Assembly: GCA_028691845.1 (NCBI GenBank)
Contig: JAQUYL010000002.1
Location: forward strand, 62,001 to 126,000
Direction of reading: 5' to 3'
Length of the DNA stretch: 64,000 nt
DNA from: Opitutaceae bacterium
GTDB taxonomy: Bacteria; Verrucomicrobiota; Verrucomicrobiia; Opitutales; Opitutaceae
Below are positions 9,802-42,118 of this stretch, in pieces. A program made the translations under genes and the position numbers. The notes below the pieces were generated by a model, which worked only from the letters and a program-made list of their open reading frames with translations, made no database searches and was not told the origin of the DNA. Each line of letters begins with the position of its first letter. The first letter of the stretch is position 1.

Positions 9802-10893
9802 CTATCTGATTTCCCGCATGGCCTTCTCGACGAACTCGTTGGTGTAGAGCTGCTCGGGGATCACATGGGGATTCTCCACCGTGGCCCGCCAGACGCCTTC
9901 CTCGCTCTTGTCGAAGCTGGACGACCTGATGGTGTCGATGGCCATCTGCACGGCGTCCGGGGTGAACGAATAATCGCCCCTGGCATAGTTCGGCAGCGTG
10001 TTCCTGAGAAAGTCGATTTCGGCCTGTCGATCCTTGCTCGTGAAATAGGTGGCCGGCAGCTTTGCGGCGATCTCGTCGGCGTTGTGCGTGTTGATATAGC
10101 GCATCGTCCGCACAAAGACGTTTACCAGGCGCTGCACGATTTCCGGATGCGCTTCAATATAGCTGGGGGCCATGAGAATGCTGATTGCCGGGAGCGGCGC
10201 CCCCAGCGCTTTCACGGTCCCTTCCCTGGTCGTCATATCGTAGAGCGTCGAGACCTTGTTGGTGGCCAGGATAGCGGAGCTCAACGGCTCCATGAACGAC
10301 ACGATATCCACCTTGCCCTCGTTGAGGCCCTTGGTGACGGCTTCGAACCGCCCGGCAGTTTCGGGGAAGACGGAGGTGTAGCTGCGCGAGGGCAGCCCGG
10401 CCTTCTGGGCCAGATAATTGGTCAGCATGCTCTTGGCGGCGTACCCCATGCCCTCGGCAACATTCCGTCCCTTGAAATCGGCCGCGCTCTTGATCTGATC
10501 CTTCACCCGATTGGCCACCATGATTTTGAGGCCCGGCGCATCGCTCAGCATGATGACGGCCTTGACAGGGTAGTTGTGGCGCACGCCGAAAATCGTGTGC
10601 TGGAACCAATGGAAGGAGGCGTCGATCCTGCCCTTGTTCAGCGGCTCCTGCATCTGGAAATCGGTCGGAGCGACATCAGCGATCTTCACTCGGATCATCT
10701 CCAGCCCCTCCTGCTGGAAATAACCAAGGCCCTGCGCCAGCAGCGGGACCATGAAGTCGCCATTGTCGCTCAGGCGGATCTTGACCGGGCTTTCGGCCGC
10801 CGGTCGGGGCGCGAGGGCCATCGCGCTGATGGCGGGCAGAAGGGCAAAGCCAAGGATTGCCGTCGGAATGGAGAAAATAAAATGGAGATTCAT
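9802..10893 (-). CDS. NMT1/THI5-like (NitT/TauT) solute-binding protein
   Basis: A 363-residue periplasmic binding protein with a signal peptide (residues 1-28). Family features: KIRLSDNGDFMVPLLAQGLG, the start of the first lobe; YFQQEGLEMIRVKIADVAP; ADFKGRNVAEGMGYAAKSML, the usual dLkGkkvg segment; and GKVDIVSFMEPLSSAIL, the hinge strand. Relatives bind nitrate, taurine or other sulfonates, or pyrimidine precursors. The ligand cannot be read from sequence. It is the last gene of the minus-strand binding-protein run and 72 nt after the preceding PstS-like gene. No cognate permease or ATPase lies within the window. It differs in family from its upstream neighbours. Confidence 0.88.
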   Translation of the reverse strand: MNLHFIFSIPTAILGFALLPAISAMALAPRPAAESPVKIRLSDNGDFMVPLLAQGLGYFQQEGLEMIRVKIADVAPTDFQMQEPLNKGRIDASFHWFQHTIFGVRHNYPVKAVIMLSDAPGLKIMVANRVKDQIKSAADFKGRNVAEGMGYAAKSMLTNYLAQKAGLPSRSYTSVFPETAGRFEAVTKGLNEGKVDIVSFMEPLSSAILATNKVSTLYDMTTREGTVKALGAPLPAISILMAPSYIEAHPEIVQRLVNVFVRTMRYINTHNADEIAAKLPATYFTSKDRQAEIDFLRNTLPNYARGDYSFTPDAVQMAIDTIRSSSFDKSEEGVWRATVENPHVIPEQLYTNEFVEKAMREIR

Positions 10894-10965
10894 TCTAATG
10901 GGAGGTCGGTTTGTTATTTGGGTCGTTGCAGCTAGTGCCTATCCGGTGCAAATGAACCAGCCGGA

Positions 10966-12111
10966 TCAATCGCGCCGATCCTTGCGGTAGAAGTGATAGG
11001 TGGGCGGATTCTCGAGCTTCTCCAATTGGGCGCGGACAACTGCGGGAGTCAGCGGCAGGTAGCCGCCTTCGCGGGCGACAACCTGCTGGCCCTGCCGGCT
11101 GAGGATGTAACGCAGGAACTCCTTCACCTTCACGTCGACGAGTGGATCGGCGTAGTCGCCGGTCTTGGTATCGATGGTAAAGTAAATGACGGGGGCGCGA
11201 TACAGCGGATAGGCCCGGCTGGCAATGTTCGCCTTGGTGGGCTCGACGTAGGGCCCGCCATCCTTGTCGGCAATGGCCACCGCCTTCACCTGGGGCGTCT
11301 TGTAACACATGCCGGTGTAGCCGATCCCGTAGCGGTCCTGGCTCAAGTCGGCCACCAGGAGCTTTTGGTCGGCATACTCGCGCAATTTCTCGTTGCGCGC
11401 GCCTGCGCCGCCCGACACCCGGGTCTGGAAATACGAGTAGGCGCCCGTCACGAGGGAAGGCTGTCCATAGGGAATGATCGTCTTGCCGGCCCACTCGCCG
11501 GTGAGGCCGAGCTGGCCCCAGGTGCGGATATTGCCCTCGGGGCCGCGCGCGACGCCTTCTTTCACCCAGTTCATGCCGTCCTGCCAGCCGCCGACGCGCT
11601 CGGCGGAAAAGATTCCGTCGAGTTGCTTGATGGTCAGCTTGGTCAGCGGGTTGTCCCGGTGGACGAAGATCGTATAGGCGTAGGACTTGCCGGGCACGTC
11701 GTAGCTGCCTGTGGCGACTTCGATTTCCACGGGAAAGTTATACGAACGCCGATAGGTGCCGAACGATTCATACGGGATCATCGGCCGGCTCATCAGGGCA
11801 ATGTCCGCCACCCAGCACTGCAAGCCCCACTGGGCAGTGGAGGTCCCTTTCAGGGTGTCCTCGTAGCGGATTTCCGGGTGATATTTGCTGAACCCCTGCT
11901 GCCAGAGATTCAGCAGGTCGGCCATGTGGGGGTTGCCCCAGCTGCGCAGAGTGCCCGATACTTGCCGGGCGGGTTTATAGTCCGGCAGGGTCGGCCAATC
12001 CTGCGCGAAGGCCGCACTGAGGAACATCAGGGTGCCCAGCGCCACCAGGGCCGTGGTCCAGACGATCCGGGTAGAGTGATATGAACGAACGCGGGAAGAA
12101 AGTGTTTTCAT
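10966..12111 (-). CDS. PstS-like solute-binding protein, copy 1 of cluster
   Basis: A 381-residue exported protein; the start at 12111 precedes a signal peptide (residues about 15-36, ending SAAFA). The family core is visible: VSGTLRSWGN (51-60), WVADIALMSRP (100-110), VATGSYDVPGKS (132-143), LTIKQLDGIFSAERVGGW (149-166), ARGPEGNIRTWGQLGLTGEW (178-197), EFLRYILSRQGQ (331-342) and YLPLTPAVV. The fold assignment to PBP-like type 2 (PstS) rests on the C-terminal FLRY-LS-GQ-YLPLT block and the QLDGIF-GGW block. The canonical R-x-x-S-G-T phosphate loop after the TGEW-KxI strand is absent; it reads IIPYGQPSLVTGAYS. The tail beyond KLE is extended and basic. The gene lies 32 nt downstream of copy 2, so the two are probably cotranscribed. 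Confidence 0.9.
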   Translation of the reverse strand: MKTLSSRVRSYHSTRIVWTTALVALGTLMFLSAAFAQDWPTLPDYKPARQVSGTLRSWGNPHMADLLNLWQQGFSKYHPEIRYEDTLKGTSTAQWGLQCWVADIALMSRPMIPYESFGTYRRSYNFPVEIEVATGSYDVPGKSYAYTIFVHRDNPLTKLTIKQLDGIFSAERVGGWQDGMNWVKEGVARGPEGNIRTWGQLGLTGEWAGKTIIPYGQPSLVTGAYSYFQTRVSGGAGARNEKLREYADQKLLVADLSQDRYGIGYTGMCYKTPQVKAVAIADKDGGPYVEPTKANIASRAYPLYRAPVIYFTIDTKTGDYADPLVDVKVKEFLRYILSRQGQQVVAREGGYLPLTPAVVRAQLEKLENPPTYHFYRKDRRD

Positions 12112-12143
12112 GGAAGAAAGGGTTTGGATTTGGGCGTGGAAAC

Positions 12144-13259
12144 TCAGTCGAGCTTCTTCAATTCCTCGGCCACCTGGGCGGGGTTCAGCGGGATCCAAGT
12201 CCTGTCCTTGACCACCTGCGCCTGGCCTTCCCGGCTAAGGACGTAGCGCAGGAATTCCTTGATGCGGGGCGGCAGCGGTTTTCCGGGCGGGCGGTTCACG
12301 TAGAGGTAGACCGCGTTGTTCATCGGATACGTGTTTTGGTGGTAGCTTTGCGCGCTGGGCATGATGTAGGGGTCGCCAGCCTTGGCCGCCAGGGGGAGGA
12401 CGCGCACGTCCAGCTTGGCGTCCTTGATCACCTTCATGAAAATGAAGGAGATGCCATAGGGGTCGTTATGGACGGCCTGTACGAGAAGCACATCGGCCGG
12501 TGTCTCGACGCCGCCTCGCACTACTTCCTTGATGGTGGGATTCCACTTGGTGCCGCCCTTGAAGACGACCTTGTGGACCAGGTCCGACCAATTGCTGAGA
12601 ACGCTATCGAGGCCGTAGACGTGGATGGGCTTGTCGGCCCATTGGCCGGTCAGGCCGAGCTGGCCCCAGGTGCGGATGTTTTTCTCGGGGCCGCGTGCGG
12701 CCGCGGTGGTCCACCTGGTCCCTTCCCATCCGCCGGTGCGCTCGGCGCCATATATGCCGTCGAGCTGATCGAGGGTCAGGCCCGAGAGCGGATTGCTCTT
12801 GTGCACGAAAAAGACGGGGCCCGGCGTGGAGCCCTTGGGGTCGTCGAAGGAGCCGTTGGCATACTTGATTTCCAAGGGCGGATAGCCATTCATCGCCTCA
12901 AACCCCTTGAGGTCGGAATGCCACCAACTGTGGCCCATGTAGCCGATATCGGCGTTGCCCGTGGCCAGGCCGGCGAAGGCCATCGGCGTGGTAAGCAGAT
13001 AATCCCAGAAACGGGCCTCGTAATTAAACTGCTTTGATTTGAACTCCACCTCCCAGCATTTCACCAGGTTGACCACGTCGTTGCCCCAGATGCGAATGAC
13101 GCCCTGGACCCTATCCTTGGGCTTGTAGGCCGGAATACCGCTGAGATCGAATTCCTCGGCCGGGGAGCGGGCGGGAGCCAGCAGCGCGGCGGCCAGGGCA
13201 AGCAAGAGGAGGCGGGTGCGCCACCCTGCGTGGAAGGAGACGGACATGGTATTTTTCAT
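12144..13259 (-). CDS. PstS-like solute-binding protein, copy 2 of cluster
   Basis: A 371-residue exported protein; the start at 13259 is followed by a long signal peptide (TRLLLLALAAALLAPARSPA). Shared blocks: VQGVIRIWGND (51-61), GNADIGYMGH (101-110), PGPVFFVHKSNPLSGLTLD (146-164), GIYGAERTGGW (168-178), ARGPEKNIRTWGQLGLTGQW, then FLRYVLSREGQ. The segment where classical PstS has R-x-x-S-G-T reads IHVYGLDSVLSNWS. Of the six cluster copies it has the shortest N-terminal extension before the domain. It sits 138 nt downstream of copy 3 and 32 nt upstream of copy 1 in the same orientation. Its ligand is unknown. Confidence 0.9.
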   Translation of the reverse strand: MKNTMSVSFHAGWRTRLLLLALAAALLAPARSPAEEFDLSGIPAYKPKDRVQGVIRIWGNDVVNLVKCWEVEFKSKQFNYEARFWDYLLTTPMAFAGLATGNADIGYMGHSWWHSDLKGFEAMNGYPPLEIKYANGSFDDPKGSTPGPVFFVHKSNPLSGLTLDQLDGIYGAERTGGWEGTRWTTAAARGPEKNIRTWGQLGLTGQWADKPIHVYGLDSVLSNWSDLVHKVVFKGGTKWNPTIKEVVRGGVETPADVLLVQAVHNDPYGISFIFMKVIKDAKLDVRVLPLAAKAGDPYIMPSAQSYHQNTYPMNNAVYLYVNRPPGKPLPPRIKEFLRYVLSREGQAQVVKDRTWIPLNPAQVAEELKKLD

Positions 13260-13397
13260 GGAGTGATTGTGGGACCCACACCGAAGTTTTTGGAGAGGGG
13301 GCAAGGTTTGCCGTCCCCACCCCCGATGCTTGGGTGCAGGACCCGATGGTGGGTTGGGTTTTTTGAAGTTTCTTGAGGGCGGATGGCCTCGCGCCGC

Positions 13398-14609
13398 TTA
13401 TTCGAGTTTCTTCAGCTGCTCCTGCACGACCTTGGCGGTGAGCGGGAGGTAGCGGCCTTCGCGCTGCACGCACTCCTGGCCCTCCTGGCTCAGGACAAAG
13501 CGCAGCCATTCCTCCGCTTTGGGGTCAGGAGCCTGGCCGGGCTTGCGGTTGAAGTAGAAGAAATACCGGCCGTAGAGCGGATAGCTGCGATCGTGGACGG
13601 TCTCGAGCGTACGCTTCACATAGGCCCCTCCCTCGTAGGCCTGAATGGCGAGTTCCTTCATGTCGGCGTTCAGCGTCATCGGTGAAACGTAATACATCGC
13701 ATACCGGTCCCTCGCGATCGCGCGCTGGGCCTGCAGGCTCCAGGGGTTGATCTTCCCTTCCGGCGTGATGTAGTTCGCGAAGGCCTGGTAGCCCTCGGCA
13801 AACTGGTCGCTGCCGCGTGTCACGATGTCGGAGAATTGCGTGGTCTGATTGCCGCGAAGTGTCTGCCCACCGGGATGAATCGGCTTGTCGGCCCACTCGC
13901 CCGTCAGGCCGAGCTGGCCCCAGGTGCGGATGTTTTCCTGCGGCCCGCGCCGGTAGGGATATTCCGAGTGCCATACACTGCCGACGTAACCGCCGTTGCG
14001 GGCGGCGCCGAACACGCCGTCCAGCTGCTTCACGCTGATCTGGTTCAGCGGGTTGTCCTTGTGCACCACAATGATGAACGCCGGCGACCAGCCATAGACG
14101 TCGTAGGAACCCGTCACGACCTCCAGTTCGGTCACCGGGTAATGGTACACCTGCTCGAAAGTCAGCAAGTCCATGATGACCGCCTTGCGACTCATCACTA
14201 CGTCGGCCACGCCGCACGACAGTGCCGGGATCGCAATGCCCGTCGTCGGCAGGTTGTATTCGATGGTGACATCGGGATGGAACTTTCGGAAGCCGTCCCG
14301 CCAGAAGTTCCCCAGGTTCTCGGTGTCGTGGCCATCCTTGAGGTAATTGTTGCCCCAGATGCGGAGGGTACCCGTTAGTTTCTGCTTCGGCACATAATGC
14401 GGCAGATCGCTGAGGTCCCATTTCTTGATGTAACCGCCGGCAACGCCGCTGGTTTTGCGGAAACCGGTGACGTTCTGCGTCCAGATGCTGACCCCGGCAT
14501 TCTTCGGTTCCTCGCCACTGGCCGGTTTATCTTGGGCAGCGAGTTGGCATGCGCCCAGGGAAAACGCCAACAGCGTCCGGGCGGTCATGATATATGATGT
14601 ATTATTCAT
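13398..14609 (-). CDS. PstS-like solute-binding protein, copy 3 of cluster
   Basis: A 403-residue exported protein. The start is at 14609, or at an internal Met at 14588 directly before the signal peptide TARTLLAFSLGACQLAAQ. The LGAC could serve as a lipobox, but this is not certain. An N-terminal extension shared with copies 4 and 5 (NAGVSIWTQNVTGFRK) precedes the domain: GTLRIWGNNYLKDG (80-93), CGVADVVMSRK (132-142), VVTGSYDVYGW, QLDGVFGAARNGGY, RRGPQENIRTWGQLGLTGEW (230-249), WLRFVLSQEGQ and YLPLTAKVV. The classical phosphate loop is replaced by IHPGGQTLRGNQTTQ. It is 75 nt downstream of copy 4. Confidence 0.92.
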   Translation of the reverse strand: MNNTSYIMTARTLLAFSLGACQLAAQDKPASGEEPKNAGVSIWTQNVTGFRKTSGVAGGYIKKWDLSDLPHYVPKQKLTGTLRIWGNNYLKDGHDTENLGNFWRDGFRKFHPDVTIEYNLPTTGIAIPALSCGVADVVMSRKAVIMDLLTFEQVYHYPVTELEVVTGSYDVYGWSPAFIIVVHKDNPLNQISVKQLDGVFGAARNGGYVGSVWHSEYPYRRGPQENIRTWGQLGLTGEWADKPIHPGGQTLRGNQTTQFSDIVTRGSDQFAEGYQAFANYITPEGKINPWSLQAQRAIARDRYAMYYVSPMTLNADMKELAIQAYEGGAYVKRTLETVHDRSYPLYGRYFFYFNRKPGQAPDPKAEEWLRFVLSQEGQECVQREGRYLPLTAKVVQEQLKKLE

Positions 14610-14684
14610 AGTTGTTGTTAGGAAAATCTCGAGAACCCCCGGTGGCGATGCCAGTGGAAGGTGCCGCCGAGCGGGGGCCAAGGC

Positions 14685-15884
14685 TCACTCCAGCTTCTTG
14701 AGTTGTTGGCGGACATCCGCGGCCATCAGCGGCAGGTAGCGCCCCTCGCGCTGCACGCAGTCCTGCCCTTCCTGGCTCAGGATGAAGTGGATGAACTCGT
14801 CGATCTTCGGTGGCAGCGGCTTGCCCGGCTCGCGGTTGAGATAGAAATAGAACTGGTAGGTCAGCGGGTAGGACCGGTCGCGACAGGTCTCGAGCGTGCG
14901 CGGCACATAGGGGCCGCCGTTAAGGCCCTGCACGGCCAGCTCCTTCAGCTCGGGGCCCATGGAGAGCGGCGACACGTAGAACATCGCGTAGCGGTCCTTC
15001 GCGATCGCCCGGCGCACCTGGTCGCTCCAGCTGTTCACCTTGCCGCCGGGCATGACGTAATTGTTGTAGCCGCGGTAGTCCTCGACGAAGTGGTCGCTGC
15101 CCCAAAGCACGATATCGGAGAAGACGGTCGTGGCGTGGCCGCGCTTGCCTTGGCCGCCGACGTGGATCGGCTTGTCGGCCCACTCGCCGGTCAGGCCAAG
15201 CTGGCCCCATGTGCGGATGTTTTCCTCCGGACCGCGGGAATAGGGATACTCGGTGTGATAGACGCTGCCGACGTAACCGCCGAGGCGCGCCCCGCCGAAG
15301 ACACCGTCCAGCTGCTTCATGCTGATCTGGTTCAGCGGGTTCTCCTTGTTCACGGCGATGATGAAGGCCGGACCCCAGCCGTAGACGTCGTAGGAACCCG
15401 TCAGCGCCGTGATCTCCGTGATCGGATGGTGGTAGACCTGCTCGAAGGTCAGCAGCTCCATGATGACGGACTTGCGGGCCATGCCCAGATCGGCCACGCC
15501 GCAAGACAGCGCCGGGATGGCGATGCCCGAGGTCGGCGTGTGATACTCGATCGTGATTCCCGGCTGGAATTTATTGAAATCCTGCTGCCAGTAGTCGCCA
15601 AGGACGCCGTCCTTGAGGTAATTGTTGCCCCAGATCTGGAGCGTGCCCGTGACCTGCTGCTTCGGCACATAGTGCGGCAGGTCGCTGAGATCCCAGCGCT
15701 TGGTGTAGCCGCCATGGGAGCCATGCTCCTTGCGGAACCCGCTGACGTTTTGGGTCCAGATGCTGACGCCGGCGTTCGCCGGTTCTTGAGTGGCAGTCGG
15801 TTTGTCTTGGGCGCAGAGTTGGATTGCGCCCACAAGGAACGCAAACAGCGTCCGGGTGATCATGGTGGATGGGTTTCTGTTCAT
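14685..15884 (-). CDS. PstS-like solute-binding protein, copy 4 of cluster
   Basis: A 399-residue exported protein with signal peptide MITRTLFAFLVGAIQLCAQ (second Met, residue 8) and the N-terminal extension NAGVSIWTQNVSGFRKEHGS. The first roughly 90 residues are almost identical to copy 5, and so is the intergenic DNA upstream of its start, showing a recent tandem duplication. Domain blocks: GNNYLKDGVLGDYWQ, CGVADLGMARK, ALTGSYDVYGWGPAF, RGPEENIRTWGQLGLTGEW, FIHFILSQEGQDCVQREG. The loop after DKPI reads HVGGQGKRGHATTV. The ligand-facing middle of the protein differs from copy 5 much more than the ends do. Confidence 0.92.
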   Translation of the reverse strand: MNRNPSTMITRTLFAFLVGAIQLCAQDKPTATQEPANAGVSIWTQNVSGFRKEHGSHGGYTKRWDLSDLPHYVPKQQVTGTLQIWGNNYLKDGVLGDYWQQDFNKFQPGITIEYHTPTSGIAIPALSCGVADLGMARKSVIMELLTFEQVYHHPITEITALTGSYDVYGWGPAFIIAVNKENPLNQISMKQLDGVFGGARLGGYVGSVYHTEYPYSRGPEENIRTWGQLGLTGEWADKPIHVGGQGKRGHATTVFSDIVLWGSDHFVEDYRGYNNYVMPGGKVNSWSDQVRRAIAKDRYAMFYVSPLSMGPELKELAVQGLNGGPYVPRTLETCRDRSYPLTYQFYFYLNREPGKPLPPKIDEFIHFILSQEGQDCVQREGRYLPLMAADVRQQLKKLE

Positions 15885-16075
15885 GGGGAGGGGATGCCGC
15901 GTGTTCGTGGAAAGCTCAGCTGGGAAAGCCTGTTGAGGTTGAGCGGAGGGATAAAGGGCGGAAGTTTTGTCGGGATGCCTGGGGGATCTTGCCGATCAGC
16001 GCCGGCCGAAAGCGGGGGACTCGGGCAGGGGGGGCGGAGGTTCATTCGAGTTTTTTCAACTGTTCCCGCACGACC
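15588..16075. repeat. Direct duplication, left copy
   Basis: About 490 bp nearly identical to 16945-17434 (offset 1357-1359 bp). It covers the 5' end of copy 4, the intergenic spacer and the last codons of copy 5. Small indels and scattered substitutions distinguish the copies. Confidence 0.85.
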
Positions 16076-17241
16076 TCGGCAGTGAGCGGCAGGTAGCGGC
16101 CTTCGCGCTGGATGCAGTCCTGCCCTTCCTGGCTCAGGATGAAGTGGATGAACTCGTCGACCTTGGGCGGCAGCGGCTTCCCTGGGGCGCGGTTGACGAA
16201 AAACAGCTGCTCGCCGGTGAGGGGATAAGTTCGATCATGAACGGTTTCCAGCGTGCGCCGGACAAAAGGTCCGCCGTTGTAGGCCTGGACCGCCAGTTCC
16301 TTCAGTTCCGGACCGAGCGACAGCGGGGACACGTAAAATATGGAGTAACGGTCCCTGGCTGCCGCCCGGCGCACCTGGTCGCTCCAGCTGTTCACCTTGC
16401 CATCCGGCATCACGTAGTTCGTGTAGGCTTGGTACCCCTCCACGAACTGACCGCTGCCGCGCAGGATCTTGTTGGAGAACCCGATCATTTTGCCAGAATA
16501 CAGGTTCTGGCCACCGGGATGGATGGGCTGGCCGGCCCATTCGCCGGTGAGGCCTAGCTGGTCCCAAGTCCGGATGTTTTCGTCTGCGCCCCGGGAATAG
16601 GGATACTCGGTGTGCCAGACCGTGCCAACATAGCCGCCCGTGCGCGCCGCGCCGAAGACCCCATCGATTTGCTTCACGCTGATCTGGTCGAGGGGATTGT
16701 CCGGGTGAACGACCACGATTCCGGCCGGCGTCCAGCCGTAGACATCGTAGGAACCGGTCGCCACCCTGATCTGGGTGACGCCATAGTGGAAGAGCTGCTC
16801 GAAGATCAGCTGATTGGAAAGCGTGGCTTTGTTGTCCATGCCGACATCGGCGACCCCGCAGGCCAAGGCCGGGAGGGCGACCGCCTCGGTCGGCAGATGA
16901 TATTCGATCGTGAGATTCGGTTGAAATTTCTTGAAATCCTCCTGCCAGTAGTCGCCAAGGACACCGTCCTTAAGGTAATTGTTGCCCCAGAACCGCAGCG
17001 TGCCAGACACCTGCTGCTTCGGCACATAGTGCGGCAGGTCGCTGAGATCCCAGCGCTTGGTGTAGCCGCCATGGGAGCCATGCTCCTTGCGGAATCCGCT
17101 GACGTTTTGGGTCCAGATGCTGACGCCGGCGTTCGCCGGTTCTTGAGTGGCGGTCGGTTTGTCTTGGGCGCAGAGTTGGATTGCGCCCACAAGGAACGCA
17201 AACAGCGTCCGGGTGATCATGATGGATGAGTTTCCGTTCAT
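16042..17241 (-). CDS. PstS-like solute-binding protein, copy 5 of cluster
   Basis: A 399-residue exported protein, a tandem sister of copy 4 with the same start context, signal peptide and N-terminal extension. Domain blocks: GTLRFWGNNYLKDG, LACGVADVGMDNK, RVATGSYDVYGWTPAG, QIDGVFGAARTGGY, RGADENIRTWDQLGLTGEW (note Gly-Gln to Asp-Gln in the WGQ motif and A for P in RGP), FIHFILSQEGQ. The loop after GQPI reads HPGGQNLYSGKMIG. It is separated from copy 4 by 157 nt of DNA that is duplicated between copies 5 and 6. Confidence 0.92.
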   Translation of the reverse strand: MNGNSSIMITRTLFAFLVGAIQLCAQDKPTATQEPANAGVSIWTQNVSGFRKEHGSHGGYTKRWDLSDLPHYVPKQQVSGTLRFWGNNYLKDGVLGDYWQEDFKKFQPNLTIEYHLPTEAVALPALACGVADVGMDNKATLSNQLIFEQLFHYGVTQIRVATGSYDVYGWTPAGIVVVHPDNPLDQISVKQIDGVFGAARTGGYVGTVWHTEYPYSRGADENIRTWDQLGLTGEWAGQPIHPGGQNLYSGKMIGFSNKILRGSGQFVEGYQAYTNYVMPDGKVNSWSDQVRRAAARDRYSIFYVSPLSLGPELKELAVQAYNGGPFVRRTLETVHDRTYPLTGEQLFFVNRAPGKPLPPKVDEFIHFILSQEGQDCIQREGRYLPLTAEVVREQLKKLE

Positions 17242-17434
17242 GGGGGGAGGGGATGCCGCGTGTTCGTGGAAAGCTTCAGCTGGGAAAGCCTGTTGAGGTT
17301 GAACGGAGGGATAAAGGGCGGAAGTTTTGTCGGGATGCCCGGGGATATTGCCGACCAGCGCCGGCCGAAAGTGGGGGACTCGGGCAGGGGGGACGGAGGT
17401 TCATTCGAGTTTTTTCAACTGCTCCCGCACGACC
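16945..17434. repeat. Direct duplication, right copy
   Basis: Partner of 15588-16075. It covers the 5' end of copy 5, the spacer and the last codons of copy 6. The one-gene-plus-spacer unit indicates unequal crossing-over as the origin of copies 4 and 5. Confidence 0.85.
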
Positions 17435-18567
17435 TCGGCGGTGAGCGGCAGGTATTTGCCGTCGCGCTGCACCTGCTCCTGGCCTTCGCGGCTCAGGATG
17501 TAGCGGACGAATTCCTTGATCCTCGGCTCGACCGTCCGGCCAGGGGCCCGGTTTATGAAGAAAAACACATCGGCATACATCGGATAGGTCCGGTCCCGGA
17601 CATTTTGGAGGTTCATCTCATAATAAGGACCGCCTTCCTTGGCGGCGAGGGCGACCGCTTTGATCTGCGGGGTCTCCCAGGCCCCGCCGCCGGCGGCGTA
17701 GGCGATCGCATAGGGGTCCCGCGCGAGATCCTTCAGCATCAGCTCGCCAGCTAGGACGAACTTGCCGTCGGGCAGGAGCTTGTTGGAGTACTCCCGGAGC
17801 TGCTCGTTCCACTTGCTGGTCACGCCGCCGAAAGCCCGTGAGGTGATCTCTTGGGGGAAATGGTACTGGAGATTGTAGCCCAAGGCGTGGATTGGCTGGT
17901 TGGCCCACTCGCCGGTCAGGCCAAGCTGGCCCCAGGTGCGGATGTTCTCCTCCGGCCCGCGGGCGTAGGATTCGTCCCATTCCAGGTCGCGCCAGATGCC
18001 TGTGCGCTCGCAGCCGTAAATTCCGTCAAGTTGTTGCAGCGTGAGCCTGGACAGCGGATTGTCCTTGTGGACGTACACGCCGATGGCGGGATTCCAGCCG
18101 GACACGTCGTAGCTGCCGGTCACCGCCACTATGCCGAGTGGGAGGTAGCTGAACTCCCGCTGAAACGACATCAATTCATCCCACATGATCTGCCGGCCCA
18201 TCGGGCCGATGTCAGATTTCCCAAAAACCAGGCCCGAGATGGCGTGTTCACTGGTGTTGAGGTGGAAATCGAACTTAACGTCGGGCTGGTATTTCTGGAA
18301 TTCCTTTTCCCACCACCCTGCCAACGGGCTGTCCGTGAAGTAGTTGGAACCCCACAGGCGGATCAAGCCAGACACCTTTTGCTGGGGCTGGTAACGCGGC
18401 AGGCTGTCGAGGTTGAATTTTTGCGTGTAGTGAACCTGGTAGCCCCGCGATTTCATCATCTTGTTCCGCGCGTTCTGGACTTCGACGGAATCGGGCTGCT
18501 GTTCGGCGCGGAGCCCGGCCAATCCGGCCGCGCACAGGACAAGCGTGATCAACTGGAAACGTATCAT
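17401..18567 (-). CDS. PstS-like solute-binding protein, copy 6 (first gene of the run)
   Basis: A 388-residue exported protein. The start at 18567 precedes a signal peptide (IRFQLITLVLCAAGLAGLRA); the 63 further upstream codons in frame are rejected as Pro/Ser-rich. Domain blocks: VSGLIRLWGSNYFTDS, FGKSDIGPMGRQ, AVTGSYDVSGWNPAI, TLQQLDGIYGCERTGIW, RGPEENIRTWGQLGLTGEW, FVRYILSREGQEQVQRDG and YLPLTAEVV. The phosphate-loop position reads IHALGYNLQYHFPQ. It is the promoter-proximal gene of the binding-protein run and is divergent from the hybrid kinase at 18895, with a 327-bp shared upstream region containing the palindrome at 18822. Confidence 0.92.
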   Translation of the reverse strand: MIRFQLITLVLCAAGLAGLRAEQQPDSVEVQNARNKMMKSRGYQVHYTQKFNLDSLPRYQPQQKVSGLIRLWGSNYFTDSPLAGWWEKEFQKYQPDVKFDFHLNTSEHAISGLVFGKSDIGPMGRQIMWDELMSFQREFSYLPLGIVAVTGSYDVSGWNPAIGVYVHKDNPLSRLTLQQLDGIYGCERTGIWRDLEWDESYARGPEENIRTWGQLGLTGEWANQPIHALGYNLQYHFPQEITSRAFGGVTSKWNEQLREYSNKLLPDGKFVLAGELMLKDLARDPYAIAYAAGGGAWETPQIKAVALAAKEGGPYYEMNLQNVRDRTYPMYADVFFFINRAPGRTVEPRIKEFVRYILSREGQEQVQRDGKYLPLTAEVVREQLKKLE

Positions 18568-18821
18568 CAATGAGCTAATGGCTGATGTTGGCTGAAAGGC
18601 CTTGAGGCTGGATCGACCGCAAAATGGATTCAGTTGGAATAGGGCGGCGGGGCAGGGAGCGGTTTCGAAGGCAGGCCTTCGATTGGTCGCCGGCCAGGAG
18701 GATGGCAGTAGGTTGGGGTTCGGGTGATCGGGCGAGAAACGCTGGCACAGCCGCAAGAAAACGGTTTGAAAAAGGCAATGCCATGGAAGGAAGCAGGGCG
18801 AAACCGCGCAACCGCTGCAAA

Positions 18822-18837
18822 GTCACCTATAGGTGAC
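18822..18837. repeat. Palindrome, family copy A
   Basis: GTCACCTATAGGTGAC is a perfect 16-bp palindrome, 57 nt before the hybrid-kinase start and within the 327-bp divergent region. It shares the GTCACC-GGTGAC arms with copies at 31149, 34458 and 50282. Confidence 0.8.
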
Positions 18838-18894
18838 CACTCCTGCCGGCAAAAGACTCGCGCCGGTTGGCGCCGGACGCATGCTGGTCTGGTA

Positions 18895-21800
18895 ATGAAG
18901 CTGCACCCCGGCCGTTTGCTGTGCGTCTGGCTGTTGCTCGGACTAGCTCCGGCCGGATCCGCGGCCGCCCCGGCGCTTCCCTCTCCATCTGCCTCCGCCG
19001 CGGGGCTCGCCGCCGTCGAGAGGCTGACGACCTCGCGTGCGTTTGTGAGCGGACCCGTGACGGCTTTTGCCCGCTCCACCGACGGCACGCTCTTCGTGGG
19101 ATCCGCCCTGTTGGCGACCTTCGACGGCTGGTCCTGGAGATCCATCAATGTGCCCGGTGCCAAGCGTTTTCTCGCCTTGGCCGCCGTCGATTCCGGGGCC
19201 GGAGCGTCGTCCGGGGGCAACGGTGGAGCGGAGCCGGCCCCGTCCCCTCCGGGAAGGGAGCGCATCTGGGTCGGCGCCGTGGGTGCGATCGGCTACCTGG
19301 AAAGGAATTCCGCCGGCGAATGGATTTTTATTTCGCTGGCGGAACCGCTGGCGGCCCTCGATATCACGGATGCGGACGAAATCAGGTACGTGCATCCAAC
19401 TCCGGATGGCGCACTGTTCGTGACCCGGTCGAAAATCCTGCGCTGGAACGGCCGGTCGTTTGCCTGCTGGGATCTGCCCTCACCCACACGTCTTTACGCC
19501 TTTTCGGTGAACGGCGCCCTGCTCGTCCATCAGCCGGACGTGGGGTTGTGGCGGATGGAGGCGACCGGTCCGCAATTATGGCTGCCGCAAAAATCGCTGC
19601 CCGCGGCTGGTCCCATGGTGGACTATTTCGCGGTGGGCAAGGATGGCGGACTGGCGGTGTTTGCTACGCAAATCCACCGGCGTGACGGGGACCAGTGGAC
19701 GCGCCTCGATGAGGTGTCCGCGATATTGCAGGACATGACTGCCGTCCATGCCGCCCAGATGACCGATGGCACGATTGTGATTGGGACACCCCGGGACGGC
19801 GTGGTCCTGATGCGGGCCGACGGCAAGGTGCAAGGGGTGGTCAACAGCCGCAGCGGCCTGGCGGACGACAATGTCCATTCGGTCTGGACCAACGAACCGG
19901 GCCAGATCTGGATCGGTCTGGCGACCGGGATCGCCCGCTTGCACGACATCGGGTGCGTGTCGTTGTTTGACGATCGGCTCGGTCTGGGAAGCGGCGGCCG
20001 TTTTGTGCGCAAAGTATTTTGGCACGAGGACCGGATCCATGTCCTGACTTCCCAAAGTGTCTACGCCCTGACCCGCTCAGACCCGCTTGAACCGGCGCGG
20101 TTCAGCCGCATAGAGAAAATCTGGATGCCGCTGTGGGATGCCGCGAGCTGCGACGGTCGCCTCTGGCTGGGCGGATCGGACGGTCTCTGGCAGGTGGAGG
20201 GCGACCGCGCCGTGCAGAAGCGGCAGACATCCTCGGAGGTGACTCTGCTGGCCACCCCTCGCGCCTTGCCCCACGGCCTGCTGTTTTTCTCGAACGATGC
20301 CAGCCAGGCCTGGTTTTCCTCCGATCGCGGCGGAGAATTCCGCGAATTGCCCCTTTCCCTGGACGGTGCCCCCACCTCGGTCGTGGAGGATGACGAAGAG
20401 GCCCTTTGGATCGCATCCCTTTCTGGCCGTATTACGGCTTATGTCTGGGACGAAGCCGGCCGCCAGTTTCGCTCCACCGCGCGCTACAAGTTGGAAAACG
20501 GCACGCCGAATCCGCCGGCACGACCGCTGTTGTCGTGTCTCGGCGGCACGCTCGTGGCATTCACCGAGGACGCAATACTCGCACGGACAGCGCCGACCGG
20601 GGATTTCCGGAAGATCGAGGCGTTTGCTGGCTGGCTGGGCATCGCGGCTGCCCCAGCCACCCGGTCCGGTCAGGCTTATTGGTTATTGCAACGCCAGGAG
20701 TTCGGCGCCGACGGCCCTTATGCCCTGTTGCGGGTGCAACGCACCGCGGCGGGAACGGAGCCATTCAGCTCGACCCTCCTAGCCGCGCCGGCGCTCGATC
20801 ATCTTGGTTCCGTCACCAGCCTGAGCACCACCACCGAGGACGGCCGGGAGGTGTTGTGGATCGGCGGGGTCAACGGCTTGGTGCGCTATGAAACCGCCAA
20901 ACTGCACCCGGCTGAACGCCGGCCGCGCGTCGCGATGAGGAGCGTGCATGTGGATCTCAACGACCGCCCCATGGCCGTCGACATAGTCCGCGATGACTTT
21001 CCCGCCCCGGTCAGCCGGCTGGCGTTCATGTTTCCCGCCGACGTCACGGTGACAGGGGACACGGTGCGCTATCAGACCAAGCTCGAGGGAGTGGAGCACG
21101 ACTGGTCGCCGCTCCAGCCTGAACCCCAAAGGGAATTCACGGGACTTGCTCCCGGAGACTATGTTTTTACGGCCCGCGCCGTGGACCGTTTCGGACGATC
21201 CGGACCGCTGCTGCGCTATCCGTTTGCCGTGGCCGCACCGTGGTATTGGCGGACCCCGATCCTTGTGCTGTACGCCATCGGCCTCGCGCTGCTGGCCTAC
21301 AGTGTCATCCGCTGGCGGCTGCACCAGCTGCGACGCCAGACCGAGCGGCTCAACCAGCTGGTCAACGAGCGCACCCGCGAACTGACGCTCTCCAACATGG
21401 CCAAATCGGAGTTTTTGGAAAATATCAGCCATGAGATTCGCAACCCACTCAACGGCATCATCGGACTTACCGGAATGCTCGACCGAAACAGCCCGCCGGA
21501 AAAGCAGCGCGAATACGCCCGGGCCTTGAAGGAATGCAGTGAGAGCCTGGCCCGCGCCTTCAACGAGGTGCTAGATTTTTCAAAACTTGAATACGGCTAC
21601 GTTTTGCTGGAGGAACGCGCGTTCTCCCTCGGTCTGCTCCTGGAAACAGTGCAGGCCGTCTTTCTGGGCCCCGCCTCCCAGCAGGGCAGCACCATCACGG
21701 TGCGCCTGCCTGCCGGCTTCAAGGACGGATTCTGGGGTGACGACGGCAAGATCCGGACGGTGCTGAACAATTTTGTCGGCAACGCGCTCAAGTATGCGCC

Positions 21801-22929
21801 GGGAACCCCCGTGGTGATCACCGCGGCCTGCGAGGAACTCGGCGACGGAAAGGTCGATGTGCTGATCGAAGTCTCGGATGAAGGTCCGGGCGTGCCGCCC
21901 GAGGAGCAGGAATTGATCTTCAAAAAATTCGTCCGAGGATCCCGGGCCAAGGAAGACAATGTGCCCGGCACCGGTCTCGGCCTAGCCACCTGCCGCATGC
22001 TGGCGAAGATTTTGTCGGGAAGTATCGGCGTGGAGAGCGAACCCGGCCGGGGCTCGACCTTCTTTCTGAACCTGCCCCTGACGCGCCACAGCCCGGCCCA
22101 GCGGCCGGCGGCGTCCACGGCCCCTGCAGTCCCGGTTGCCACTCCCGCCACAGAAGCCGGCGGCCCCTGGGCGCTCATCATCGAGGATCAGCCTTACAAC
22201 CAAGTCGTGCTGGCAGATATTCTGGCCGAGTTGAATTATCAGGCGGAATGCGCCGCCCAGGCGGATTTGGCTTTCGCGGCGGTCGCCCGGCGGCGGTTCG
22301 AACTGGTCCTGATCGATCTGGAACTGCCCGGCCTTAAAGGCCCTGAGATTGCGCGCCGGCTGCGCACCCTCCCGTCCAGCCGCGAGGCCGTGCTGATCGG
22401 CACAAGTGCAAGCGACAGTCGGGAAGCGGCGCAGCAATGCATGGAGGCCGGCATGGATGCGTTTCTGCTCAAGCCGCTTGACACGGCTTCCATCCGCGCA
22501 GCGATTCGGGAGGCCCGGGCCCGGCGCCGGCCTCCGGCTGGCGCGGAGCCAGGCCTCGATTGCACCGCCTTCGAGCGGTATGCGCGGAAAAATCCCGGCG
22601 GCCTGCCGGAGGCCGTGCGCGCATATGTGAGCGCCCTGCAGAGCGAGTTGGCGGCACTCGGCCAGGCCGTGCGCGCCAATGCCCGGGAGGATATCGTGCG
22701 GTTCGCGCACCGGGTGCGTTCCCATGCCTTCATCATCAACGCCACACGGTTGAGCCAGCCCGCAGGGGAACTGGAAATCGCGGCCCGGGCGGGTCCGATC
22801 GGAAACGGCGAGGAAAGATGGCAGGAGATTCTGCGCGCGGCCGCAGACGTGGAGCGACAGCTCAATGCGAGGTTCGCCCGGGAGAATCCGGCGCCCGCGC
22901 AAAACCCTTCTCGATCGCATACCGCATGA
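18895..22929 (+). CDS. Hybrid sensor histidine kinase with periplasmic propeller, receiver and Hpt-like domain
   Basis: A 1344-residue one-protein phosphorelay. The start at 18895 gives a signal peptide (residues 1-23). Residues about 35-700 are a periplasmic two-component-regulator propeller (repeats such as GQIWIGLATGIARLHD and VLWIGGVNGLVRYE). A Y_Y_Y domain (about 705-780), one membrane helix (783-805) and a coiled linker follow. HisKA has the phospho-acceptor His846 in ENISHEIRNPLNG. HATPase has the N box near 955 (NNFVGNALKYAP), DEGPGVPPEE and GTGLGLATCRML. The receiver (about 1090-1205) has Asp1141 in LIDLELPGLKG. The C-terminal Hpt-like helix bundle has His1272 in AHRVRSHAF, where the usual Lys-Gly after the His is Arg-Ser. 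The gene is divergent from the PstS-like run and converges on a LuxR-type regulator with a 68-bp 3' overlap. The ligand is probably a polymer breakdown product or one delivered by binding proteins; this last point is inference. Confidence 0.95.
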   Translation: MKLHPGRLLCVWLLLGLAPAGSAAAPALPSPSASAAGLAAVERLTTSRAFVSGPVTAFARSTDGTLFVGSALLATFDGWSWRSINVPGAKRFLALAAVDSGAGASSGGNGGAEPAPSPPGRERIWVGAVGAIGYLERNSAGEWIFISLAEPLAALDITDADEIRYVHPTPDGALFVTRSKILRWNGRSFACWDLPSPTRLYAFSVNGALLVHQPDVGLWRMEATGPQLWLPQKSLPAAGPMVDYFAVGKDGGLAVFATQIHRRDGDQWTRLDEVSAILQDMTAVHAAQMTDGTIVIGTPRDGVVLMRADGKVQGVVNSRSGLADDNVHSVWTNEPGQIWIGLATGIARLHDIGCVSLFDDRLGLGSGGRFVRKVFWHEDRIHVLTSQSVYALTRSDPLEPARFSRIEKIWMPLWDAASCDGRLWLGGSDGLWQVEGDRAVQKRQTSSEVTLLATPRALPHGLLFFSNDASQAWFSSDRGGEFRELPLSLDGAPTSVVEDDEEALWIASLSGRITAYVWDEAGRQFRSTARYKLENGTPNPPARPLLSCLGGTLVAFTEDAILARTAPTGDFRKIEAFAGWLGIAAAPATRSGQAYWLLQRQEFGADGPYALLRVQRTAAGTEPFSSTLLAAPALDHLGSVTSLSTTTEDGREVLWIGGVNGLVRYETAKLHPAERRPRVAMRSVHVDLNDRPMAVDIVRDDFPAPVSRLAFMFPADVTVTGDTVRYQTKLEGVEHDWSPLQPEPQREFTGLAPGDYVFTARAVDRFGRSGPLLRYPFAVAAPWYWRTPILVLYAIGLALLAYSVIRWRLHQLRRQTERLNQLVNERTRELTLSNMAKSEFLENISHEIRNPLNGIIGLTGMLDRNSPPEKQREYARALKECSESLARAFNEVLDFSKLEYGYVLLEERAFSLGLLLETVQAVFLGPASQQGSTITVRLPAGFKDGFWGDDGKIRTVLNNFVGNALKYAPGTPVVITAACEELGDGKVDVLIEVSDEGPGVPPEEQELIFKKFVRGSRAKEDNVPGTGLGLATCRMLAKILSGSIGVESEPGRGSTFFLNLPLTRHSPAQRPAASTAPAVPVATPATEAGGPWALIIEDQPYNQVVLADILAELNYQAECAAQADLAFAAVARRRFELVLIDLELPGLKGPEIARRLRTLPSSREAVLIGTSASDSREAAQQCMEAGMDAFLLKPLDTASIRAAIREARARRRPPAGAEPGLDCTAFERYARKNPGGLPEAVRAYVSALQSELAALGQAVRANAREDIVRFAHRVRSHAFIINATRLSQPAGELEIAARAGPIGNGEERWQEILRAAADVERQLNARFARENPAPAQNPSRSHTA

Positions 22930-23518
22930 GCTGCGGGGTGCTGTGCATGTCGAGTTTGGCCATGAGCTTGAGGCGGTGTTTTTTAGCCGTGGCCACGCCG
23001 ACACCCAGCCGCCGGGCGATCTGTTCATTGGTCAGCCCTTCGCCGACCAGCCGCAGCACTTCCTGCTCGCGGTCCGAAAGGATTTTGTCGAAAGCCGCAG
23101 GGTCGGCGCGCAGCGTGGCGTGCAGCCGCTGCACTGCGGAGGAAATATACTGCCGGCCGGCCAGGACCGCGGTCACCGCTTCGCGCAGGACCTTGATAGG
23201 CTGCTCATTCTTGTCCAGAATGCCGTGCACACGGGAGCTCAAGGCGCGGTGCAGGGTGAATTCGTCGATATGGGAGGACAGCGCGATGATCTTCACCGTC
23301 GGGACCTGTGAAAAAAAATCCGGCACAAGGTCGAGGCCGTCGCCATCGGAGAGCACCAGATCCAGGATGACCAGATCCGGGGGATTGCGCCGGCACGCGG
23401 CCCGCGCCGTCGCGCCGTCCCCGGCCGCGTCCACCTCGGCTTCCGGCAAGGCATGCGAGCACTCGTTGACGAGCAGTTCGCGCACCAGGGTCTGGTCCTC
23501 CACGATCAGAATTTTCAT
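22862..23518 (-). CDS. NarL/LuxR-family response regulator
   Basis: A 218-residue protein. The receiver (1-120) has a complete site: EDQ near residue 8, phospho-acceptor Asp53 in VILDLVLSDGDG, Ser in ALSSH, Lys103 in GILDKNEQP. The C-terminal LuxR-type HTH (about 145-205) reads LSDREQEVLRLVGEGLTNEQ and RRLGVGVATAKKHRLKLMAK. Its 3' end overlaps that of the propeller kinase by 68 bp in convergent orientation. Position suggests it is the output partner of that kinase, but cotranscription is impossible. It is a paralogue of the degenerate-receiver regulator at 2379. Confidence 0.93.
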   Translation of the reverse strand: MKILIVEDQTLVRELLVNECSHALPEAEVDAAGDGATARAACRRNPPDLVILDLVLSDGDGLDLVPDFFSQVPTVKIIALSSHIDEFTLHRALSSRVHGILDKNEQPIKVLREAVTAVLAGRQYISSAVQRLHATLRADPAAFDKILSDREQEVLRLVGEGLTNEQIARRLGVGVATAKKHRLKLMAKLDMHSTPQLMRYAIEKGFARAPDSPGRTSH

Positions 23519-23837
23519 GGCAGGACTCCCCTTGGCTTGAGGTTTCCAGACGGGAGGGGAGAAGGAGGGGACGCAGCAGTCACGGCAGACATCGGCAGTA
23601 GGATGGCATTAGAGATCGAATGTCTGCATCCGGCAATCATTCATCGTGCAAATTGCTTTCCAGTTGGGTCCGTCCCATTCCGGGCTGGCTCGGCCGGCTG
23701 GATGTCCGTGATTCCTCCGGGTGAACTCCGCTTCGGACCGGTCGGTGAAAGGACCCAGGCCCGCTTTTGGACTGGGGAATCCGAAGGTTGCGCCGTTCGG
23801 ATATCTCGGTTTATTCCTACACCCAATCCACGCTTCG
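23519..23837. other. 319-bp divergent intergenic region, nothing specific seen
   Basis: It lies between the start of the LuxR-type regulator and the receiver-PLP gene, so it must hold both promoters. The frame open from 23721 into the plus-strand gene was not accepted as coding, because the good start and domain begin at 23838. Confidence 0.4.
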
Positions 23838-25796
23838 ATGGCTTCCACTACCAACGTCCCCGGTGCCGCCGGTTCAATCCCGACCATTCTCGTGGTCGAC
23901 TCCGATGAACCATTGTGCTCGACCCTGAAGGCCAGCTTCCGCGCCGGCGGCTACCACGTATTCTGTGCCAGCGATCCCGGCACTGCCTGGGATATGGCCC
24001 GCCGACACCTGCCCGACTTGATCATTTGCGATGTCGACATGCCTGGGAAGGGCAGTCCGCTCCTGTTGAAGGAGCTGCGTTCGGATCCTGTGCTCGGCAG
24101 CCGGCAGTATGTGCTCATGTCCGGAAAGGGGGAACCGTCCGACTCCAGCGCGGACGTAGCGCCCGGCCAGGATGATACCTTCCAGAAACCCTTCGCCCTC
24201 GCCGAGCTGTTCCAATGCGTTGCCGCCCGCCTTTCCAGTACGCCGAAGATATCCCCGGCCGGCCGGCCCGCTGAGTTCCCGGATTCCTTGCCGCTCGGGC
24301 GGCCCATCCCGGGAGGTCCTCACTCAGTCTCGTGCAGCCTGCCCACGCTGCAGGATCTCATCCGCTACGAGGAAAAGGATCCTGCCTTGATGGCCCGGAT
24401 CACGGTGGGCTACCCCCGTTTTGTCGTGCACCGGTTCGTGCGCCAGCTCGGCGCCGAGCTGGCACGCCTCCATAAACTCACCGGACGCACGCTTTGGCTG
24501 ACCTCTTCGGCCCGCATGGCGGACGAACTGGCCGAGTACCTGGCTGACGACGATGTGTTTATTTTCATGCACGGGCGGATTCATGGCATCACGCATCCCG
24601 ATAATCCCGACGTGGCCACCCGCGCCAACACTTTCCTCCAGCATGTCGGCGGTTTCCTGTCTTCCCGCGAGGCCGAGGACGCCTTGGCGGAGATGGGCGT
24701 CCTGGCGCATGCCGGTGCCGAACCCCTGTTCGCCGGGGACGCTGCGGCCGAGGTGCGCCGCGTCCTGCACCATGCATTCCTTTCCTCCCGCAGGACTTTT
24801 TCGGCCGGGCCGGGTGACGCGGACCTGCTGCTCGCGCCGAGCGGCATGAATGCCGTTTATGCCGCGTTTCGCGGCGTCTCCATCGTGCAGGCTGCGCGGG
24901 GACGCACCGCCTGGGTGCAGCTCGGCTGGCTCTACCGCGACACCATGGCCATCCTGAAAAAATTCACCCCCCATCCGGCACAGGATTACATCCACCTGCC
25001 CAATGTGGGCGATCTGGACGCCGTGGAACGGGTTTTGGCCGAGCACGGTCCCCGCATCGCCGGCCTTGTCACCGAGGTGCCCACCAATCCCCTGCTCCAG
25101 ACCTGCGACCTCCCTGCGCTCGCCGCGCTGGCCCGCCGGCATGGTGTCCGTCTCATCGTCGATCCCACGATTGCCTCGCCCTTCAATCTCGACGTGCTCG
25201 AGTTCGCCGATTTGGTTGTCACCAGCCTGACCAAATACGCCGCCAACGAAGGCGATGTCATTGCCGGCCTGGTCGTGGTCAACTCCGCCTCGCCGGATGC
25301 CGGCGCGCTGCGCTCCGCGGTGGCGGCCCAGCTCGAACCGGTCTACCATCGCGACCTCGCACGCCTCGCCGCGGAAATCGGCGCCTTCGAGCCCCTCATC
25401 ACCCACACCAACGCCACCACGGCCCGGGTCGTCGAGTTTCTGCAGAAACATCCCGCTGTGCGCCAGGTCTACTGGCCGCTCCAGCCCGGCTCGCGGGCGA
25501 ACTACCTCAAGCTGGCCCGTCATGCCGATGCCGCTGGCGCCATGATTTCCTTCACGCTGAATATTCCGCTCGAAAAATTCTACGACCGGGTGCGCATTCC
25601 CAAGGGACCGAGCTTTGGCATGAAGAACTCCCTCCTTTGCCCATTCCTTTACATTGCCCACTATGACCTCGTGAGTCATCCCGCCGGCCGTGCCGAACTG
25701 CTTGCCAACGGCCTCGATCCCGAGCTTATCCGGCTCTCGGTCGGCCTCGAGCCCGCCGAGAAAATCATCGCTGTCCTGGCTGAAGCGCTGGGGTAA
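23838..25796 (+). CDS. Receiver domain fused to cystathionine gamma-synthase-like PLP enzyme
   Basis: A 652-residue cytoplasmic fusion. Residues 15-130 are a full receiver: acidic Asp21/Asp23 (VVDSDEP), phospho-acceptor Asp65 (LIICDVDMPG), Ser95 (LMSG), Lys117 (TFQKPF). A Pro-rich linker (about 131-165) leads to a Cys/Met-metabolism PLP enzyme (about 168-652): TVGYPRFVVHRFVRQLGAEL, TEVPTNPLLQTCDLPAL, pyridine-binding Asp442 (LIVDPTIASPFN), Schiff-base Lys466 (SLTKYAANEGDV), and the C-terminal IRLSVGLEPAEKII. This is the long cystathionine gamma-synthase type, related to fungal enzymes. It would make cystathionine in methionine synthesis. The receiver suggests activity or oligomerisation under phosphorelay control. 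The frame is continuous with no hint of an assembly join. A 14-nt gap separates it from the DUF167 gene. Confidence 0.92.
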   Translation: MASTTNVPGAAGSIPTILVVDSDEPLCSTLKASFRAGGYHVFCASDPGTAWDMARRHLPDLIICDVDMPGKGSPLLLKELRSDPVLGSRQYVLMSGKGEPSDSSADVAPGQDDTFQKPFALAELFQCVAARLSSTPKISPAGRPAEFPDSLPLGRPIPGGPHSVSCSLPTLQDLIRYEEKDPALMARITVGYPRFVVHRFVRQLGAELARLHKLTGRTLWLTSSARMADELAEYLADDDVFIFMHGRIHGITHPDNPDVATRANTFLQHVGGFLSSREAEDALAEMGVLAHAGAEPLFAGDAAAEVRRVLHHAFLSSRRTFSAGPGDADLLLAPSGMNAVYAAFRGVSIVQAARGRTAWVQLGWLYRDTMAILKKFTPHPAQDYIHLPNVGDLDAVERVLAEHGPRIAGLVTEVPTNPLLQTCDLPALAALARRHGVRLIVDPTIASPFNLDVLEFADLVVTSLTKYAANEGDVIAGLVVVNSASPDAGALRSAVAAQLEPVYHRDLARLAAEIGAFEPLITHTNATTARVVEFLQKHPAVRQVYWPLQPGSRANYLKLARHADAAGAMISFTLNIPLEKFYDRVRIPKGPSFGMKNSLLCPFLYIAHYDLVSHPAGRAELLANGLDPELIRLSVGLEPAEKIIAVLAEALG

Positions 25797-36063: not shown

Positions 36064-36095
36064 GGCGGAAAGGGGGAAGCGGGGAAGGCCGATGA

Positions 36096-37226: not shown

Positions 37227-37228
37227 GG

Positions 37229-39339: not shown

Positions 39340-39349
39340 GGCGGCGGAA

Positions 39350-39448
39350 TCAGCGATTGCGGTTTTCCGGCGGCGGCGGATTCTTGTGATCGGGTTCGAT
39401 CGCGACCAGCAGCGCGAGCAGGGCGAACACGATGATGACGGCGATCAT
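39350..39448 (-). CDS. 32-residue single-helix membrane peptide in the efflux operon
   Basis: An ORF of 33 codons whose ATG (39448-39446) overlaps the TGA of the upstream ATPase (ATGA), ending 10 nt before the next ATPase start. The peptide is one strongly hydrophobic helix (MIAVIIVFALLALLVAIEPD) followed by a Pro/Asn/Arg tail (HKNPPPPENRNR). Position and coupling argue for a genuine small subunit, comparable in style to small membrane proteins that associate with transporters. It has no recognised family. It could also be a translational-coupling spacer. Confidence 0.55.
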   Translation of the reverse strand: MIAVIIVFALLALLVAIEPDHKNPPPPENRNR

Positions 39449-40374: not shown

Positions 40375-40419
40375 GGGAAGGCGGCGCGGGGCGAGAGGCC
40401 AGGGGAGTGCTTGGCGTGA

Positions 40420-42061: not shown

Positions 42062-42070
42062 ATAAACCTA

Positions 42071-42100
42071 AGGAAACTCTTAAAGTATCCAAAGTTTCCT
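42071..42100. promoter_or_regulatory. Probable operator of the TetR-family gene
   Basis: AGGAAACT and AGTTTCCT are inverted 8-bp arms separated by 14 nt, starting 10 nt upstream of the tetR-like ATG in an otherwise AT-rich leader. The position and two-fold symmetry fit a TetR operator overlapping the promoter. Confidence 0.6.
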
Positions 42101-42118
42101 AAAGTCAAGACCAAAGAA

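Follow-up and report, generated by a model that had tools for sequence, protein, structure and literature searches.

Arrays of PstS-like binding proteins with a predicted loss of the phosphate site and no Pst pump in an Opitutaceae bacterium

The over-representation of orphan solute-binding proteins (SBPs) is already known for the Bug/TTT (TctC) family, which is over-represented in Bordetella, Cupriavidus and Rhodoplanes (PMC5994714, PMC5812351) and one member of which, BctC, both transports and signals, via the Tct-type kinase BctE (PMC5812351). How binding proteins might work without an ATP-binding cassette (ABC) pump is a question left open by these orphans. In the pyoverdine FpvC/FpvF-FpvG system, a TonB receptor is combined with periplasmic binding proteins and with a reductase of the inner membrane that acts on the periplasmic side (PMC6954188), and some PepSY_TM proteins are ferrisiderophore reductases (PMC13038864). 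Here, we analyze an array of PstS-like binding proteins in a 64,000-nucleotide stretch of an Opitutaceae bacterium (assembly GCA_028691845.1, contig JAQUYL010000002.1, positions 62,001 to 126,000; hereafter the window). A preliminary description of the window had reported six consecutive same-strand PstS-like genes and two further ones, with ten related domains in all, and this was confirmed with the profiles PF12849 and TIGR02136 and with an iterated hidden Markov model (HMM). Six genes have a single domain and two are double-domain genes, each domain scoring 410–478 bits with the HMM; PF12849 matches most of the eight genes and TIGR02136 matches all eight (E 1e-15 to 1e-49), at bit scores of 55–167 that lie under its curated cut-off of 206.6. 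The conserved sequence blocks quoted in that description are present in the window genes and throughout the family. We found no open-access paper describing orphan over-representation for PstS-type proteins, although the scope of this search is no proof of novelty.

By sequence, the nearest solved structures are 4OMB/4PQJ, the Pseudomonas aeruginosa PstS (PaPstS), and the same entries are the best PDB match (E 4e-28, template-modelling score 0.54–0.60) of an AlphaFold2 model of a window domain (predicted local distance difference test, pLDDT, 96.4). The window proteins belong to the PstS/PBP_like_2 sequence family and have a type II periplasmic-binding fold. An LPxY N-terminal segment is retained in 73 of 84 domains. 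Phosphate-contact residues, in contrast, have largely disappeared. Eight such positions were chosen on the basis of the PstS motif, with no use of coordinates, and their residues were compared with those of PaPstS; one of them, an aspartate position, is uncertain because an insertion adjoins it. The 80 domains of the window's genome kept 0–3 of them and 445 redundant domains of the whole family kept at most five, compared with eight in PaPstS and seven or eight in two control SBPs encoded within true pstCAB operons (loci L105 and L109). The arginine of the GRN loop and the SGT and AGSST/GSDT motifs are missing almost throughout the family. Judged by these alignments, the array proteins are derived from a P. 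aeruginosa-type PstS and have lost its phosphate-contact motifs. As for their location, 58 of 74 genes carry an export signal by a crude rule, and in 52 of these it is of the signal peptidase I type; most of the other genes are truncated or have a signal that is apparent by eye.

The ligand site itself appears to have diversified. Subfamilies were defined by a FastTree analysis of 155 domains with six genomes compared, and the pocket was taken as the fourteen columns that surround the ancestral phosphate site. Pocket columns are 57% identical within subfamilies and only 20% between them, whereas the remaining columns, be they in coil, helix or strand, show 58% identity within and 38–41% between subfamilies. 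None of 2000 random sets of coil columns reached the within/between contrast of the pocket, and none of 2000 equally variable column sets matched its conservation within subfamilies, a conservation that holds inside subfamilies across phyla. At the level of sequence, the ligand site is maintained and yet differs from one subfamily to the next, which is the strongest functional evidence of this study. This pattern suggests receptors specialized for different ligands.

The assembly containing the window (2.95 Mb, 98.8% complete, 37 contigs) was then searched as a whole. PF12849 matched at 77 places, nearly all in intact frames, and the family thus extends far beyond the genes first reported; by our own gene calls, these 77 genes total 97 kb, or 3.3% of the assembly, and the number may be a minimum since several clusters stop at contig ends. 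Seven loci carry runs of at least three PstS-like genes, the longest run being eight genes. Across this genome only three matches to the permease profile PF00528 were obtained, two from OppBC and the third from a permease of the SsuC/SaoP type, and none is a Pst permease; the same procedure detected permeases at the positive controls L105, L109 and L038. A canonical PstS was not found in this genome either, and phosphate uptake in the host probably proceeds via Pit, as a double PHO4 (Pit) gene is present. The earlier statement that the array lacks a partner transporter therefore holds genome-wide, and a Pst operon just outside the window or elsewhere, the finding that would have overturned it, is excluded in this assembly. 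The SsuABC/Sao-like set has its own SBP beside it. Among other genes at these loci, an FGE-sulfatase-like gene lies within one array (L027, 18011–19213), and DUF5916/CBM9 proteins adjoin PstS-like genes at two loci (L014, 7990; L029, 4086).

The preliminary description regarded the system as lineage-specific, a view that comparison with other genomes does not support, since both arrays and orthologous subfamilies are present in several phyla. Among 57 relatives searched, most have one to three copies and strong expansion was seen only in the window's genome and in one other (G024). A closed Opitutaceae genome (G168) contains 40 matches, most of them concentrated in a single region of ∼62 kb. 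When named genomes, some metagenome-assembled ones of which may be mis-binned, were scanned with a profile, relatives were found in Opitutaceae including Lacunisphaera, in Sphingomonas, Novosphingobium, Pelomonas, Steroidobacter and Nevskia, in Acidobacteria, in Streptomyces and Actinopolymorpha, and in others; isolates among the carriers are Novosphingobium kunmingense, Sphingomonas gilva, Pelomonas sp. KK5, Streptomyces scopuliridis and Actinopolymorpha alba. In the tree, subfamilies A, B, E, F, J and K each span more than one phylum, and subfamily I, whose proteins of ∼600 aa have an additional domain at the N terminus, is represented once in each of the six genomes compared. The additional domain (∼230 aa) is conserved and fused to the PstS-like domain (L048, 3630; L064, 2828; L027, 7476), and a Pfam scan assigned it to no family. 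Gene order is also shared: the H–G order (window genes at 12144 and 10966) recurs in other arrays of the same genome, twice in G024 and in G168, and S. gilva and Pelomonas have the order F-I-W-N in common. All 16 G024 domains compared are nearer to a copy in the window's genome than to each other, indicating that the paralogues predate the split between the two genomes; a recent local burst of duplication was rejected on the same grounds. An assembly artifact was rejected because arrays are present in the closed genome and in isolates, and phage cargo because there were zero matches among 50,697 phage records. Family members also occur on large sphingomonad and Arthrobacter plasmids (L126, Novosphingobium resinovorum pSA1; L127; L128), two of which are typed as conjugative and would therefore offer a route for spread between lineages.

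Within the window, the array is operon-like, forming a minus-strand run from 9802 to 18756 with intergenic gaps of −55 to 159 bp. Its first gene (17401–18756; 4OMB, 6e-40; HMM, 478 bits) probably has its real start at an internal position near 18567. It is followed by three subfamily A genes, at 16042–17241 (TIGR02136, 3.8e-15; HMM, 450 bits), at 14685–15884 (PF12849 and TIGR02136 profiles, subfamily tree) and at 13398–14681, the last of which encodes the domain modelled above, to which a domain in G024 is 80% identical. Next come a subfamily H gene (12144–13304; Pfam and NCBIfam profile matches, subfamily tree) and a subfamily G gene (10966–12198; PF12849, 4.6e-14; 4OMB, 1.9e-47; subfamily tree). 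The final gene of the run, 72 bp from the PstS-like genes, encodes an orphan SBP of the NMT1/SsuA type (9802–10893; PF09084, E 2.9e-12; TIGR01728, E 1.4e-15, below cut-off), and no ABC partner was found near it; the preliminary description had not included this gene. The two further PstS-like genes are on the plus strand and are indeed double-domain genes. The one at 55115–57424 has HMM domains of 461 and 463 bits; the other, formerly placed at 58432, spans 58234–60783, position 58432 being probably an internal start, and both of its domains, detected by iterated HMM, are 82–83% identical to a gene elsewhere in the same genome (L005_8886). Divergent from the array is a hybrid histidine kinase gene (18724–22929, plus strand; Y_Y_Y, HisKA, HATPase, receiver and Hpt domains), which adjoins a LuxR-type response regulator gene (22862–23518, minus strand). 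PstC, PstA, PstB and import permeases are absent from the 64-kb window, and its ABC genes at 37–48 kb are of ABC-2/exporter types; the region 34756–48439 encodes two export-type sets, one in which two DrrA-like ATPases and an outer-membrane efflux protein accompany an ABC-2 permease, and one of two adjacent ABC exporter half-transporters. In addition, a single open frame at 23721–25796 (plus strand) encodes an unusual fusion in which a Cys/Met-metabolism PLP-dependent enzyme is preceded by a response-regulator receiver domain, and a second Cys/Met PLP enzyme gene adjoins PstS-like genes in L020.

Neighbor enrichment was assessed by comparing genes at distance 1 with those at distance 4 or more from PstS-like genes, after removal of near-duplicates and of antisense open reading frames, an apparent cluster of which was judged spurious. 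The most common neighbor is a TonB-dependent receptor (20/188 versus 4/236, p 7e-5). Also enriched are a PAS-like small exported protein of 163–199 aa (18 versus 2, p 2e-5), an NMT1 binding protein (12 versus 0, p 5e-5), a YncE-like propeller (16 versus 4, p 1e-3) and a PepSY_TM protein (12 versus 2, p 2e-3). Kinases and regulators (p about 0.85) and SDF transporters are not enriched beside arrays overall, and CitMHS and 2HCT genes are too few for such a test. NMT1 genes adjoin arrays in 12 loci and are fused to a PstS-like domain in L041, L044 and G168. The only PepSY_TM gene of G168 and the only strong one of G024 are located at their arrays. Most strong occurrences of the PAS-like family genome-wide lie near PstS-like genes, including three of five in the window's genome; no Pfam family was assigned to this protein in our scan, and AlphaFold2 with Foldseek relates it, at modest confidence, to PAS/GAF/Cache folds, among them the sensor domains of DcuS and CitA. 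In G168, one long open frame far from any array (C1:132037–133317) has three weak matches to this family in tandem. The PstS-like genes of N. kunmingense, S. gilva and the N. resinovorum plasmid pSA1 are accompanied by CitMHS and by genes for a regulator and a kinase, the kinase being, where scanned, of the 2CSK_N type with an SBP_bac_11 protein adjacent; a 2HCT transporter is carried at the G024 locus and at that of an Acidobacteria metagenome-assembled genome. ABC permeases occur beside the Pst controls and at an Opp locus in Actinopolymorpha and were not found near other arrays. The partners visible in the window's genome comprise kinases, NMT1 and PAS-like proteins and MFS genes, with only a few TonB receptors, which indicates that the partner set differs between hosts. 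An association with TonB receptors within this genome alone was unconvincing, about 5 of 12 receptors lying within 10 kb of a PstS-like gene.

The explanation we favor, tentatively and as slightly more apt to be wrong than right, is that the arrays encode exported periplasmic receptors forming the capture arm, and sometimes the signaling arm, of an ABC-independent uptake of varied small ligands. PstS-derived receptors would no longer bind phosphate, would have diverged into at least 12 subfamilies, each with its own ligand site, and would not supply a Pst-type ABC pump. Ligands may enter the periplasm via TonB-dependent receptors or porins and then be bound by the array proteins, which could hand them over to secondary transporters (CitMHS, 2HCT, SDF, MFS); metal chelates might be reduced by PepSY_TM proteins and some ligands might be signaled to two-component kinases. 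Small organic acids and/or their metal complexes would be the likeliest class of ligand, because CitMHS, 2HCT, SDF, Tct-like kinases, PepSY_TM proteins and DcuS/CitA-like folds are found among a minority of neighbors. Several observations weigh against capture for ABC-independent uptake: the enrichment counts take no account of common descent among loci, carboxylate transporters are present at a minority of loci only and show no statistical enrichment, the window's genome has no PepSY_TM genes and TonB receptors beside few of its arrays, and close relatives exist in actinobacteria, which lack a comparable outer membrane. A bolder form, which we regard as speculative, is a new, ABC-independent uptake and sensing machine, shared by several phyla, in which ten to forty diversified PstS-fold receptors per array, a TonB receptor and exchangeable inner-membrane partners (reductase, carboxylate symporter, kinase) cooperate, each subfamily reading a different small ligand.

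Alternatively, the array proteins could be mainly sensory co-receptors that dock on the periplasmic parts of nearby kinases and widen their signal range, with transport secondary. Ligand presentation to the adjacent kinase, as proposed in the preliminary description, is a conceivable form of this role: homologues of the Y_Y_Y hybrid kinase are also divergent beside two further arrays of the same genome (L001 and L027), making three. The sphingomonad loci with their 2CSK_N kinase and regulator, the DcuS/CitA-like small proteins adjoining arrays, the BctC–BctE precedent and the Rhodoplanes TTT SBPs, likewise near kinases (PMC5994714), point the same way. However, the lack of kinase and regulator enrichment, the excess of 40–77 receptors over a handful of kinases and the prevalence of TonB receptors as neighbors make a mainly sensory role unlikely. 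Less probable again is that the orphans share, in trans, a very small number of transporters encoded elsewhere, either ABC or secondary, for example of the Opp or Ssu/Sao-like type. Both an OppBC pair and the SsuABC/Sao-like set exist in the window's genome, NMT1-type orphans resemble SsuA and an Opp-type system adjoins an array gene in Actinopolymorpha, but the Ssu/Sao-like set has an adjacent SBP of its own, and no PstS-fold receptor is known to dock on permeases of the Opp or Ssu type.

A structural or surface role in biofilms, adhesion or appendages seems improbable. The N-terminal loop of P. aeruginosa PstS reportedly matters for biofilm independently of phosphate, this PstS is the closest structure and most array domains retain the LPxY segment; a scaffold, however, would not predict ligand-site columns that are conserved within and diversified between subfamilies. 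Least credible of all is a periplasmic buffering or scavenging function for phosphate or an oxyanion like it, which the preliminary description had listed and which is suggested by the PstS fold and by NCBIfam and GenBank-style names that say phosphate-binding. It finds no support in proteins whose phosphate-contact motifs are lost almost throughout, nor in a host that has Pit and is without Pst.

Since databases label these genes phosphate-binding, many genomes from soil and freshwater are probably credited with more capacity for phosphate acquisition than they have, and a large receptor repertoire probably goes unread under such labels. Should the arrays prove to be TonB-linked receptors, they would be an example of binding proteins working without a dedicated ABC pump and would provide a natural set of diversified ligand sites on one well-known scaffold.

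Compared to P. aeruginosa-type PstS (4OMB/4PQJ; TIGR02136, PF12849), the array proteins share family, fold, the N-terminal LPxY and the C-terminal YP and GQ motifs, but they lack the phosphate-contact motifs, have an insertion before the IFV-NP block, are without pstCAB and reach 40–77 copies in some genomes, with a diversified ligand site. As in SusCD-type TonB systems, a binding protein is encoded beside a TonB-dependent receptor; the array proteins differ in their PstS fold and in their mostly signal peptidase I-type signals, as assigned by the crude rule, and SusD is not among the commonest families of the array neighbors scanned. With respect to FpvC/FpvF-FpvG, the arrays use other and far more numerous binding proteins, and PepSY_TM occurs in a subset of loci only. 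The Bug/TTT proteins provide a functional parallel in that SBPs are over-represented without membrane partners (dozens to hundreds of paralogues there, 77 here and 40 in G168), some in tandem arrays and near kinases. The two SBP families are nevertheless unrelated, and Pfam scans of the window proteins matched PF12849 and, weakly, SBP_bac_8, with no match to TctC. In contrast to Bug/TTT, arrays of 6–10 consecutive genes are common among the PstS-like proteins, subfamilies and some gene order are shared across phyla, and the accompanying genes include those for TonB receptors, PepSY_TM and YncE-like proteins.

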